This document shows, piece by piece, positions 10,963 through 21,307 of a stretch of DNA of 64,000 bases. This DNA comes from Edaphobacter sp. 4G125. Lineage in GTDB: Bacteria > Acidobacteriota > Terriglobia > Terriglobales > Acidobacteriaceae. Within the stretch, counting starts at the first letter, position 1; each line of letters begins with the position of its first letter. The DNA is taken from NCBI RefSeq assembly GCF_014274685.1, contig NZ_CP060393.1, positions 1,857,501 through 1,921,500 on the forward strand. The letters are read 5' to 3'. The translations under genes were made by a program, and so were the position numbers. The notes beneath the pieces were generated by a model, which made no database searches, was not told the origin of the DNA, and saw only the letters and a list, made by a program, of their open reading frames with translations.

Positions 10963-11075
10963 ACCTACGTTACATTTGGCCCCTTCCTGACCTTTTCCCA
11001 GGGGCTGGCCCCATATCGTAAAAGCCTTGCTGTTACCCTCTATAGCTTGAGTCTGAATCTCAGCGTCCCAACAAA

Positions 11076-11690
11076 CCTGTCAAGCCCCTCACTCCCCTGT
11101 ACAAACTCTCCATCCAAAACAAACCAAACCACTTCCCCACCCAGAAACAAACCTCTGGAAAGTGCTGATTTACCCATCCCAACTCTCTACAATAGAAAGT
11201 AGGGAAAGAAGCAAAGCCCCGGCACACGCCGGGGCTTCTTTATTTAACTCGCAGTTTGACAGTCGGACTGCGCCCGAAGTCCAGACTTAAACAATCTGCT
11301 TTGAAGACTTTGCACGAAAACAAGGGGGGATACCCATGCACAACGAAGCCACACTCAACAACGACCAGCCCGATAACGACTACCAGTGCCACCACATCTT
11401 CCCCGATAACGCCCGCTGCGGCAGTCCACGAATGCGCAACGAGCAGTTCTGCTACTACCACCACGACTCCCGCCGCCCCGTCGTTCGCCCGCACGAGCGA
11501 CTCGCACGTCGCAGCACCTTCTCTCTCTTTACCCCCACCGATCACGACGCCATCCAGGAATCTCTCGGCGAGCTCCTCATCCGCATCGCCGCCAACGACA
11601 TCGACCCACGCCGCGCCGGTCTTCTCCTCTACGGCCTCCAGATCTCCTCTGCCAACCTGCGCCGCAAGCAACGAGCTCAGCAAACCCAGC
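11076..11690 (+). repeat. Inverted duplicate module, copy 1 (leader + terminator + Cys/His gene)
   Basis: This segment matches the minus strand of roughly 19569-20185 with scattered differences. Matching begins near a CTGTCAAGCCCC block and includes CATCCAAAACAAACCAAACC, CAACTCTCTACAATAGA, the GCCCCGGC hairpin, CGCCCGAAGTCCAGACTTAA, the GGGGGATACCC box before the ATG, and ~355 bp of coding sequence up to CAAACCCAGC. The two copies face each other 8 kb apart. Whether the unit moves by itself or spreads by gene conversion cannot be told from this window. Confidence 0.8.
11188..11245 (+). promoter_or_regulatory. Promoter-like -10 box followed closely by an intrinsic terminator in the leader
   Basis: TACAAT (11188-11193) is a good -10 box, with no strong -35. 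A start would fall near 11200. Only ~14 bases later, AAGCCCCGGC (11214-11223) and GCCGGGGCTT (11228-11237) form a 10-bp perfect hairpin with loop ACAC and tail CTTTATTT. The Cys/His gene begins ~90 bases further on. This could be an attenuator that normally ends a short RNA, or a terminator insulating the gene. The same arrangement is kept in copy 2. The promoter call is inference; the hairpin is seen directly. Confidence 0.6.
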
Positions 11691-11797
11691 TTCGCTCTCA
11701 ACCCTCAACCCAGGCCACCCATGAATCCGAACCGAAATCGAACGTAGATTCTCAGGCCCAGTCGTATTCGCAAACGACCCCGATTGCTTCCCCGTAA
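11336..11797 (+). CDS. Small Cys/His (C-x9-C-x10-C-x2-H) zinc-finger-like protein
   Basis: 153 residues. Near the N-terminus C18, C28, C39 and H42 (with extra His at 19, 20, 43) have the exact spacing C-x9-C-x10-C-x2-H, suited to one zinc ion and numerically the same as the plant WRC finger; no homology is claimed. An Arg-rich stretch follows, then a predicted helical region (IQESLGELLIRIAAND, RRAGLLLYGLQISSANLR), then a low-complexity Ser/Gln/Thr tail. I do not recognise a named family; nucleic-acid binding is a reasonable guess. The start is preceded by a GGGGGATACCC box. A second copy at 19.9 kb carries a nonsense codon. The C-terminal tail differs after about residue 118. Confidence 0.7.
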   Translation: MHNEATLNNDQPDNDYQCHHIFPDNARCGSPRMRNEQFCYYHHDSRRPVVRPHERLARRSTFSLFTPTDHDAIQESLGELLIRIAANDIDPRRAGLLLYGLQISSANLRRKQRAQQTQLRSQPSTQATHESEPKSNVDSQAQSYSQTTPIASP

Positions 11798-13750: not shown

Positions 13751-14128
13751 ATGGAACCCTTGATCACCGAAGCCGAGATCTCCACCCTCGTCGACACCTT
13801 CTACGACAAGGTTCGCCGCGACCCTGATATCGGCCCTATCTTCAACGCCATCGTCGGTGACTGGCCCCATCATCTCGCCACCCTTAAGAACTTCTGGTCT
13901 ACCGTCCTGCTCACCACCGGCCGCTACAAGGGCGACCCCATGATGACCCACCTCCAGCTCCCTCTCGACCCTGATCACTTCTCTCGCTGGCTCGCCCTCT
14001 TTGCCGAAACCGCCCGCGAGATCTTCCTACCCGAAGCAGCCTCCGTCGTCATCGCCAAATCCGAGAGAATCGCCGAAAACTTTCAGGCTGGAATCGCCTA
14101 CCAGCGCGAGCAACGCTCCAGGTCCTGA
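13751..14128 (+). CDS. Group III truncated hemoglobin-like protein
   Basis: 125 residues, the size of the 2-on-2 globins. The early helix ISTLVDTFYDKVRRDPDIGPIF, then DWPHHLATLKNFWSTVLLTTGRYKGDPM, and LPLDPDHFSRWLALFAETA with the likely proximal His match group III truncated hemoglobins. These bind O2, NO or CO in the cytoplasm; their physiological role is mostly unsettled. The short gene stands alone ahead of the fucosidase leader, with a TTGACA promoter element 22 bases after its stop that belongs to the next gene. Confidence 0.88.
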   Translation: MEPLITEAEISTLVDTFYDKVRRDPDIGPIFNAIVGDWPHHLATLKNFWSTVLLTTGRYKGDPMMTHLQLPLDPDHFSRWLALFAETAREIFLPEAASVVIAKSERIAENFQAGIAYQREQRSRS

Positions 14129-14150
14129 ATGCTTTCCACACCCTAGCCTC

Positions 14151-14214
14151 TTGACACGCCTGTTAAACTAAACCTATAGACAAGTGGAAAAGCCCGGGCA
14201 CTCCCCGGGCTTTT
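14151..14214 (+). promoter_or_regulatory. Sigma-70-like promoter with an intrinsic terminator immediately after the start site
   Basis: TTGACA (14151-14156), a 17-base spacer and CTATAG (14174-14179) make a strong promoter with a start near 14186. Directly behind it AAAAGCCCGGG (14188-14198) and CCCGGGCTTTT (14204-14214) form an 11-bp perfect hairpin with loop CACTC and then TTGTTATG. The fucosidase start lies ~97 bases on. Farther down the leader GTACAAA (14250-14256) can pair with TTTGTAC (14290-14296), which abuts the GGGGGGAG ribosome-binding site. This looks like a conditional leader, although the hairpin might instead terminate transcription from the globin gene. Confidence 0.6.
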
Positions 14215-14310
14215 GTTATGCTCATTTCATCGCCTGTCCGAACCATCAAGTACAAACCTAAACTGTTTTTTCCGAATACTTTGTGCATTTTTGTACCGGG
14301 GGGAGTATCC

Positions 14311-19551: not shown

Positions 19552-19923
19552 CTACGACCTCTTCACCGGCTGGGTTTGCTGAGCTCGTTGCTTGCGGCGC
19601 AGGTTGGCAGAGGAGATCTGGAGGCCGTAGAGGAGAAGGCCGGCGCGGCGCGGGTCGATATCGTTGGCGGCGATGCGGATGAGGAGTTCGCCGAGAGATT
19701 CCTGAATCGCATCGTGATCGGTGGGGGTAAAGAGAGAGAAGGTGCTGCGGCGTGCGAGTCGCTCGTGCGGGCGAACGACGGGGCGGCGGGAGTCGTGGTG
19801 GTAATAGCAGAACTGCTCGTTGCGCATTCGCGGACTACCGCAGCGGGCGTTATCGGGGAAGATGTGGTGGCACTGGTAGCCATTATCGGCCTAGTCGTTG
19901 TTGAGTGTAGCTTCGTTGTGCAT
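19552..19923 (-). pseudogene. Cys/His protein, copy 2, interrupted by an in-frame amber codon
   Basis: Read from ATG 19923, the frame gives MHNEATLNND and then TAG (complement of 19891-19893) where copy 1 has CAG. The rest of the frame is intact and nearly identical to copy 1, including C28, C39 and H42, to a different tail ending PVKRS. The change is one base. Re-initiation at the Met before RNEQFCYYHH (19827) would lose the first two Cys of the finger. So this is a recent pseudogene, or the amber is read through or suppressed. The leader and hairpin are kept. Confidence 0.8.
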
Positions 19924-20185
19924 GGGTATCCCCCTTGTTTTCGTGCAAAGTCTTCAAAGTAGATTGTTTAAGTCTGGACTTCGGGCGCAATCCGATTGCA
20001 AAACTGCGAGTTAAATAGGGAAGCCCCGGCGAGTGCCGGGGCCTTTTTGTTCCTGCTTCTATTGTAGAGAGTTGAGGTGAGTAAAAAAGCAGTTTCAGAG
20101 GATTTGTTTTCCGGTGGGGAAGTGGTTTGGTTTGTTTTGGATGAGGAGTGTTGGTGGGTTTTATACAAAGCCCAGGGGCTTGACA
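19569..20185 (-). repeat. Inverted duplicate module, copy 2
   Basis: Reverse-complement counterpart of 11076-11690. It keeps the TACAAT box (complement of 20061-20066), the terminator hairpin (20022-20043, GCCCCGGC stem, loop ACTC on the minus strand), the ~95-base leader and the GGGGGATACCC box before the ATG. Differences are scattered substitutions and small indels. Similarity ends within the coding region near 19569, so copy 2 carries a different 3' tail. Confidence 0.78.
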
Positions 20186-20645: not shown

Positions 20646-20746
20646 GGGTTGATTTTAGGTGTCAGGTTCGCGCTTTGCGCGAATGATCCCACATCTGGCT
20701 TTGCCAGATGTGGGGCACCCGCACCCGATTCGTGGTGGTTCAGTCA
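20646..20746. repeat. REP block, left direct repeat flanking the RAYT gene
   Basis: Begins GGGTTGATTTTAGG, then two hairpins in tandem: TTCGCGC-TTT-GCGCGAA and CACATCTGGC-TTT-GCCAGATGTG, then GGGGCACCCG and GTGGTGGTTC. It is nearly identical, in the same orientation, to 21209-21307. Its last bases form the stop codon of the RAYT gene (complement of 20744-20746). Confidence 0.85.
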
Positions 20747-21208
20747 GGGTTGGGTGATGAGGACGGGGGAGGGTTCGTTGAGAAGGTAGTGGCGGTAAGA
20801 GGACCAGGGCCAGTCTTGGGGGTGGGAGACCAGACCTCGGGTGACGGGGTTGCGGTGGATGTACTTCAGCTTTTCAACTCGCTTGTTGTGGGTGTGGACG
20901 TTGAAGTCGTAGTAGCGGGTCTGCCAGAAGGGGCGCTCAGTGAGGTTTCTGGAGACGGAGATTTTTAAGGCCTGGAGGGCCTTGGAGAGTGGGGCATGGG
21001 GAGGTTCGGAGACGAGGAGGTGGATGTGCTCGGGCATGACGACGTAGCCGAGGACTTCGAAGCCGTAGGTGGAGCGGGTTTGTTCGAGGGATCTCAGGAA
21101 GGTGTCTTTGGATGACGGGGTGTTGAGGTAGGGTTTGCGGTGGTAACAACTGAAGGTGATGAAGTGGTCGTCGTCTTCTTGTTGGTAGCGCTTAAGGCCC
21201 AGCGGCAT
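20744..21208 (-). CDS. REP-associated tyrosine transposase (RAYT), Y1/IS200-like
   Basis: 154 residues. ITFSCYHRKPYLNT at the start, VMPEHIHLLVSEP carrying the HUH metal-binding His pair, and WQTRYYDFNVHTHNKRVEKL with the candidate catalytic Tyr are typical of Y1 transposases of the RAYT class. IHRNPVTRGLV and the WPWSSYRHYL ending are also diagnostic. These enzymes cut and join single-stranded REP hairpins; they are usually single-copy and chromosomal. REP blocks border the gene exactly on both sides. The last residues (PVLITQP) are encoded by the left repeat boundary. Confidence 0.9.
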   Translation of the reverse strand: MPLGLKRYQQEDDDHFITFSCYHRKPYLNTPSSKDTFLRSLEQTRSTYGFEVLGYVVMPEHIHLLVSEPPHAPLSKALQALKISVSRNLTERPFWQTRYYDFNVHTHNKRVEKLKYIHRNPVTRGLVSHPQDWPWSSYRHYLLNEPSPVLITQP

Positions 21209-21307
21209 GGGTTGATTTTAGGGTATCGGGTTCGCGCTTTGCGCGAATGATCCCACATCTGGCTTTGCCAGATATGGGGCACCCGATTGGTGGTGGTTCG
21301 GTCAGAT
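21209..21307. repeat. REP block, right direct repeat flanking the RAYT gene
   Basis: Near-identical to 20646-20746 in the same orientation, starting directly at the base before the RAYT ATG. It contains both TTT-loop hairpins, the second with one mismatch (GCCAGATATGGGG). A partial third copy of the terminal part (CAGATGTGGGCCACCCG) follows at 21304-21320. Confidence 0.85.

Follow-up and report, generated by a model that had tools for sequence, protein, structure and literature searches.

A dispersed, oriented intergenic repeat in Edaphobacter and its possible partnership with a predicted zinc-knuckle protein

Do a long non-coding leader and the small gene behind it, found twice within a few kilobases of an acidobacterial genome, form one unit, and what would the leader be doing there? 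The question arises from the window, i.e. the whole stretch of 64,000 nucleotides of Edaphobacter sp. 4G125 that was analysed here. A repeat search of the window returned three inverted pairs, 11318-11690/19569-19941 (95% identity), 11213-11328/19930-20045 (92%) and 11105-11197/20057-20149 (83%), which tile a single unit (11105-11690 on the plus strand versus 19569-20149 on the minus strand). blastn of both neighbourhoods gave a single 587-nt match at 92% and reported no similarity in the flanks of either copy, and by eye the 5' end of the duplicated unit can be traced back to the TGTCAAG box (Table 1). The inverted duplication of leader and gene that an initial annotation had proposed is thus borne out, and the 153-residue reading frame with its C-x9-C-x10-C-x2-H pattern is as it had described. 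That some 118 codons recur in the second copy holds for the similarity, which is real, but not for an intact gene: an in-frame TAG interrupts it at codon 11 (one TAG was also reported in the protein search), and past this codon the frame stays open until a stop at 19554-19552, with an ending that differs from that of P0001, the product of the first copy. Because of the TAG and the different ending, the second gene copy is probably a pseudogene, or else begins downstream.

Table 1. Features of the duplicated module and the third leader copy in the window
Feature	Position	Strand	Basis or remark
5' boundary box TGTCAAG	11078..11084	+	direct reading
-10-like TACAAT, conserved GCTANNNT..AAAT / TACAATAGAAA box	11188..11193	+	reading, consensus
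G+C-rich terminator-like hairpin, 10 pairs, then CTTTATTTAA	11214..11237	+	hairpin search
Conserved 3' box	11275..11329	+	GAAGTC 11276-11281 can pair with GACTTT 11306-11311; G-run 11324-11329
P0001, 153-aa predicted zinc-knuckle protein	11336..11797	+	ORF reading, alignment
C-x9-C-x10-C-x2-H motif, residues 18-42	11387..11461	+	alignment of 23 sequences
Predicted helical hairpin, residues 70-120	11543..11695	+	structure model, pLDDT block means 86-95
Third element copy	14150..14310	+	CTTGACA, hairpin 14190-14220, box 14248-14305, fucosidase ATG 14311
Second gene copy	19552..19923	-	TAG at codon 11 (19893-19891), own ending
3' box of inverted second copy	19930..19983	-	entire copy from about 20187 to 19569

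The leader occurs a third time in the window, before an alpha-L-fucosidase gene; the initial annotation does not mention this copy. The three window copies were scored with R2, a broad model built from 36 of 46 extracted sequences (ten, duplicates among them, were left out), at E values of 1.3e-15, 1.3e-14 and 6.4e-9; the first copy is among the 36 training sequences, and the other two lie outside the training set. The match among the three leaders is far beyond chance, which disposes of the notion that their similarity might be random. The neighbourhoods of the first and second loci suggest that both are old sites. Close to the first is a bacterial-globin-like gene (13751-14128, Pfam E 1e-4) that also stands beside a P0001-type gene in E. 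aggregans (L018) and in genome G024 (L214), and close to the second is a HerA-like gene, as for the relative in G033.

Adjoining the second copy is a gene for a Y1-type transposase (20744-21208, minus strand; IS200-like, RAYT-like), flanked by two REP-like repeat copies (20653-20721 and 21217-21285) in a REP-RAYT-like arrangement. The sign of the GC skew flips over 8-kb stretches (-0.106 at 8-16 kb and +0.108 at 16-24 kb of the window), and between 8000 and 24000 the element orientation flips along with it, as if small inversions were frequent.

Across an alignment of 23 sequences of the P0001 family, C18, H20, C28, C39, H42 and H43 are invariant and the block LLLYGLQIAS is well conserved. The structure model of P0001 is confident for the helical hairpin and of low confidence in the N-terminal half, with a weak overall pTM of 0.47, and Foldseek found no match to it in the PDB at E<=0.001. 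The family has no match in Pfam, NCBIfam, PHROG or PADLOC, nor in the PDB by sequence or fold; P0001 matches nothing in phage and plasmid collections, and the anti-phage defence models of PADLOC match 0/23 members. The initial annotation knew of no described bacterial family of this kind, and these four libraries of families contain none. The Cys/His spacing of P0001 agrees with that of the plant WRC finger (C-x9-C-x10-C-x2-H; PF08879) and is like that of zf-C3Hc3H (PF13891). The proposed WRC-like finger is right in this respect, but the Pfam WRC profile reaches at best E 0.044, in 3/23 members and below the curated score, and does not match P0001 itself, while zf-C3Hc3H gives E 0.08 in 1/8 members and is unlisted among the 23; membership of P0001 in the WRC family is not supported. 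Further sub-threshold matches to zf-primase (9/23 members, best E 0.041), NCBIfam GvpO (16/23, best E 0.031) and PlcR (P0001 alone, E 0.036) were set aside as composition or short Cys/His similarity. P0001 is predicted to be a small, zinc-binding zinc-knuckle protein that probably binds nucleic acids.

There are six protein matches in the own genome, namely P0001, the broken copy, relatives at 54% and 50% identity, a distant one (27%) and a remnant. The profile of alignment A2 gives matches in 33/36 same-genus genomes as well as the own one and in 0/24 genomes outside the genus. With the larger alignment A4, for which the best 13 candidates per genome were scored, the wider family is seen in 69 of the 299 class genomes, the own one among them, and best matches below E 1e-30 were reported solely for the own genus and for 2/3 genomes of genus g22. 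Named relatives of P0001 come from Edaphobacter aggregans DSM 19364, Acidobacteriaceae bacterium KBS 89, two acidobacterial metagenome-assembled genomes (MAGs) and one Verrucomicrobia-labelled MAG; we call P0001-type the loci of these relatives and any match with a profile E below 1e-30 in the A2 or A4 survey. The contig of the Verrucomicrobia-labelled MAG (L022) carries the leader box together with a P0001 relative (41% identity), by mis-binning or transfer. Proteins of the wider family with a similar Cys/His start are found in many acidobacterial genera, with up to 10-14 matches per genome, and the members scanned gave no Pfam or NCBIfam model above cut-off.

The leader proves to be far more abundant than the gene. 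Its DNA alone finds 11 matches in the own genome, itself included, and R1, a sequence-only model of the 3' box made from 10 own-genome sequences (three being leaders of P0001's gene family), has 112 matches at E<=1 and 93 at E<=1e-3 in the 4.25 Mb. Among the best 90 of these 112, which were read with their flanks, four stand before a P0001-type gene or before the broken copy or remnant of one; the other 86 have no P0001-type gene and lie before unrelated genes, or with the G-run abutting the stop codon of a convergent gene. A constant unit of leader and protein is not supported, given these 86 copies and nine of 36 P0001-type loci that lack the leader by the model. Separate searches of the genome confirm many copies of the leader box, with 93 matches, but not that it always accompanies the protein, with six. 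R2 matches 32/36 same-genus genomes and the own one, and 0/24 outside the genus; the best ~88 candidates per genome were scored for the genus, and large counts are thus lower bounds. Among 17 genomes of other genera it finds 100 (G150), 9 (G345), 10 (G278) and 5 (G275) elements.

The consensus of the element, taken from 38 length-filtered own-genome copies, consists of TGTCAAGCCC, an A/C-rich stretch, TTGCAGATTCACCCC, GCTAaAaTtaAAatAG and, in part of the copies, a hairpin, followed by GAAGTCCgAaCCTAA-N-TTcGAATACTTTGCgCAAAA and the G-run (often GGGGGAGGGG). It is no palindrome and measures ~130-260 nt from TGTCAAG to the G-run; TGTCAA occurs <=260 nt upstream of the 3' box in 73/90 own-genome copies, and some copies have extra AATACTTTGC-type units. 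The 5' modules vary among species and are common to the copies within one species. No promoter pair was found at 11188-11193 by a consensus sigma-70 scan. By eye, a second class of elements has CTTGACA 7-8 bases ahead of the -10-like box; a TTGACA only 7-8 bases before a TANNNT box, seen at L070, L186, L207, L222 and window position 14151, is an unusual sigma-70 spacing. Of 25 leaders of the P0001 family, 22 have the hairpin (author-set criterion) and 24 have GGGG <=30 nt from the ATG. Rfam 15 has 0 matches in the window at gathering score, and the best match of a permissive scan of 11000-11400, on the opposite strand, scored 35.7 bits where the family requires 55. A coding function of the 3' box was considered, as the frame is open before several genes, and was rejected on inspection, its fixed and variable bases being unlike codon wobble.

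The leader folds better than its shuffles (z -5.5), a large share of which is due to the G+C hairpin. The GAAGTC/GACTTT stem is paired in 94.9% of cells versus 22-51% when slid, and convergent and codirectional copies are alike in this pairing. Most of its pairs, however, hardly vary. The closing pair changes from C-G to A-U in 6/36 sequences, with the pair broken in 11; within the own genome, A is opposite G in 0/41 and C opposite T in 28/80. Overall, there is moderate support for GAAGTC/GACTTT as an RNA stem. A local alternative hairpin, AAGTC/GACTT, was discarded, having no covariation beyond shuffles.

How closely, then, is the element tied to the protein? In a locus test with 46 sources, five of which repeat a locus already counted, the R1 box lies just upstream of the gene in 27/36 distinct P0001-type loci of other genomes (among them L263 at E 0.011 only) and in 0/5 loci of more distant or fragmentary relatives. 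As the leader accompanies the protein in these 27 distinct loci, the non-coding part is conserved, in agreement with the initial annotation, which had seen it duplicated with the gene. Relatives with the protein and no leader do exist: nine P0001-type loci have none by the model (L215, L217, L223, L224, L225, L226, L275, L280 and L281). Leader remnants are visible by eye at L215, L224 and L281; both P0001-type loci read in genus g22 belong to the nine, which weighs against a partnership.

The number of elements also follows the presence of the gene. Within the genus, the 25 genomes with a P0001-type match (<1e-30) have 6-89 elements, large counts being lower bounds, while the 12 without have 0, 0, 0, 0, 1, 2, 2, 3, 4, 4, 19 and 30, hence 0-4 in 10/12 (Mann-Whitney p 1.7e-5 over 37 genomes, kinship ignored). 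A second set of genomes was chosen after the class protein survey and before the element counts were known. In this set, the genomes with a P0001-type gene have 18 (G082), 86 (G064), 100 (G150) and 9 (G345) elements, and the 17 without have 5, 10, 5 and fourteen zeros (p 5e-4, kinship ignored), with G299 (8e-30) and G302 (7e-30) in the latter group just short of the cut-off. Shared ancestry could be behind part of this co-occurrence. Against a partnership stand G006 and G020, which hold 30 and 19 elements and no clear P0001-type gene, and the weak correlation of protein copy number with element number (Spearman 0.41).

Neighbouring genes were called with a simple author-made codon-usage gene caller. 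On the G-run side of the 90 own copies, the gene is codirectional in 47 cases and convergent in 42. The distance between the G-run and a convergent stop codon is -1 to 5 nt in 21/42 own, 19/21 G026 and 7/16 G031 copies, and the TGTCAA end comes that close to a coding sequence in 1/70, 1/33 and 0/10 measurable cases, respectively. Codirectional starts are looser, with 4/47 at <=5 nt and 14/47 at <=25 nt in the own genome. By the author-set criterion, the hairpin is found at convergent versus codirectional copies in 22/42 versus 16/47 cases in the own genome (p 0.09), 17/21 versus 5/13 in G026 (p 0.025) and 2/16 versus 2/10 in G031. An attenuator limited to codirectional genes was rejected as a general rule, as convergent copies have the hairpin, if anything, more often.

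The element is strongly polar. Its strand has flanks with C>G, i.e. the G-run lies on the locally C-rich strand, in 84/90 own copies, in 33/34 copies in G026 (34 read of 35 matches) and in 26/26 in G031 (26 read of 77), and this holds for either direction of the neighbouring gene. Between ~0.2 and 2.5 Mb, the origin and terminus assumed from the minimum and maximum of the sampled skew, 37/50 copies are on the minus strand, and elsewhere 32/40 are on the plus strand. The other short repeats GTCATTTCGACC, GAGAAATCCCCG, GGGTGCCCCA and GGGTACCC (L023-L112) are oriented with the element in 14/14, 24/24, 10/10 and 6/6 cases (54/54). Strand polarity seems to be general for dispersed repeats in this genome, and with these other repeats oriented alike it was ruled out as a mark of this particular element and protein.

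Comparison of relatives gives an impression of turnover. Genomes G025 and G032, with ~79-98% DNA identity in aligned pieces, have element positions in common for 17/17 and 17/20 copies. One of the three G032-only copies was followed and has a decayed counterpart at that site in G025; this sole difference examined looks like decay rather than excision. The self-spreading system considered at the outset gains no support here: nearly all positions are shared, and the site examined looks decayed. Five of the 90 own copies and the 34 G026 copies read coincide at orthologous genes with conserved arrangement (L054/L157, L109/L174, L029/L161, L062/L144 and L023/L145), and comparison of the own genome with 26 copies read in G031 gave no coinciding position. 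Of the genus loci read at the dnaJ stop codon, 3/30 carry the element (G000, G033 and G034; one of the 30, L247, leaves its contig after ~40 nt), as does G026; G012 may hold a decayed copy, and several element-free relatives have hairpins at the dnaJ end. Given the positions common to relatives and the patchy presence, dnaJ included, the copies are old but not fixed.

Taken together, we tentatively favour an oriented repeat lying between genes, with parts that resemble a promoter, a terminator and an RBS, and as its partner a zinc-knuckle protein that would bind zinc and the element and be controlled by its own copy. This partnership is supported by the copy numbers, the leaders at 27/36 versus 0/5 loci, the co-occurrence, the stem pairing and the invariant Cys and His residues, and is weakened by the 28/80 C-T closing pairs, the pTM of 0.47 and the little-varying stem pairs. 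RNA polymerase would start at the -10-like box and many transcripts would stop at the hairpin, as in attenuation, while read-through would expose the stem-loop box and the G-run, which likely serves as ribosome-binding site wherever a start codon follows. Expressed from a leader of this type, the zinc-knuckle protein could then bind the element, either in the RNA (at stem-loop box and G-run) or in the DNA, feed back on its own leader and act on other copies at gene ends; at convergent genes, the element may mark the transcript end. Over long periods, copies of this oriented repeat would have spread among intergenic sites, with losses occurring through decay. Those outside P0001-type genes may be functional targets or a repeat merely of like sequence. 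It is somewhat unlikely that the protein, as an RNA/DNA-binding zinc knuckle, reads a polar structured element of ~10-100 copies per chromosome at housekeeping gene ends on one replication strand and sets transcript ends or starts genome-wide via an autoregulated leader.

IS200/IS605 or REP elements may insert into single-stranded DNA on one fork strand, and the present element could be mobile in the same manner: a non-autonomous repeat whose target is one strand of the replication fork while it is single-stranded, with the gene as passenger or helper on few copies. The orientation of the copies read (84/90, 33/34 and 26/26), the other short repeats oriented with the element (54/54), the species-specific 5' modules common within a species, the patchiness at dnaJ (3/30 loci read) and the Y1 transposase gene nearby (20744-21208) would all suit such a repeat. 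We nonetheless consider it unlikely, given that terminal repeats and a target duplication were not seen by eye, that G025 and G032 share 17/17 and 17/20 positions with the one difference read apparently decayed, and that the modules within the element are conserved in a unit without transposase. A general intergenic punctuation module, with promoter, bidirectional terminator and strong RBS, that the protein uses like any gene and without special tie, would agree with neighbours resembling housekeeping genes (dnaJ, mnmA, pyrE and others, named from sequences at 12 loci), and the hairpin of a convergent copy can terminate the neighbour, as hairpins do at dnaJ in element-free relatives. However, the 27/36 leaders and the co-occurrence are then in need of explanation, and the numbers of codirectional (47) and convergent (42) neighbours are similar, which makes this account quite improbable in our view. 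Chromosome-wide spread and strand polarity could finally point to a polar site of chromosome organisation or replication, with the protein as its binding factor. This is hardly credible, as such a site would have no need of a conserved part resembling promoter and RBS, and the polarity is common to other repeats. KOPS that orient FtsK are expected on the strand opposite to the C-rich strand of the element; the G-run does contain GGGGAGGG, but on the C-rich strand and thus the wrong way round, and KOPS were rejected as the main reading.

REP/RAYT already exemplifies the general case of an intergenic repeat that is linked to a protein. REP/BIME and REPINs with RAYT (Y1) transposases resemble the present element in being dispersed, intergenic, partly near stop codons (446 of 4,072 E. 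coli REPs within 15 nt; PMC12306157) and linked to a protein gene. They differ from it in that the element has ~130-260 nt, no palindrome, a promoter-like box, a G-run and a hairpin in part of the copies. P0001 gave no Y1 match in the searches made, and the Y1 gene nearby is accompanied by different repeats, so that membership in REP/RAYT is not supported. IS200/IS605-type elements insert into the lagging-strand template (PMC6006769), and one orientation relative to strand composition is a common trait. Here, by contrast, the unit is without transposase, and neither end structures nor a fixed target tetranucleotide were recognised by eye. The MIRU of mycobacteria likewise lie between genes and adjoin a stop or start codon, a likeness of placement when compared by description; we know of no tie of MIRU to a zinc-knuckle protein. 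Autoregulated leaders with attenuator hairpins are similar in that our leader, too, combines a promoter-like box, a hairpin and an RBS ahead of a gene whose product is a putative nucleic-acid-binding protein, but this leader type recurs at some 86 other places and has no Rfam family at gathering score. Literature searches returned nothing on this element or on such a protein-repeat partnership.

Dispersed bacterial repeats are common, and to our knowledge few come with a dedicated non-transposase protein. The repeat described here combines parts resembling expression signals, strong polarity and a frequent position only a few bases from stop codons with a number that follows one small protein family. 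A regulatory partnership, if shown, would move the system further from the REP/RAYT kind, and the old question of whether repeats are parasites or a regulatory layer is made directly testable in soil bacteria such as Edaphobacter.
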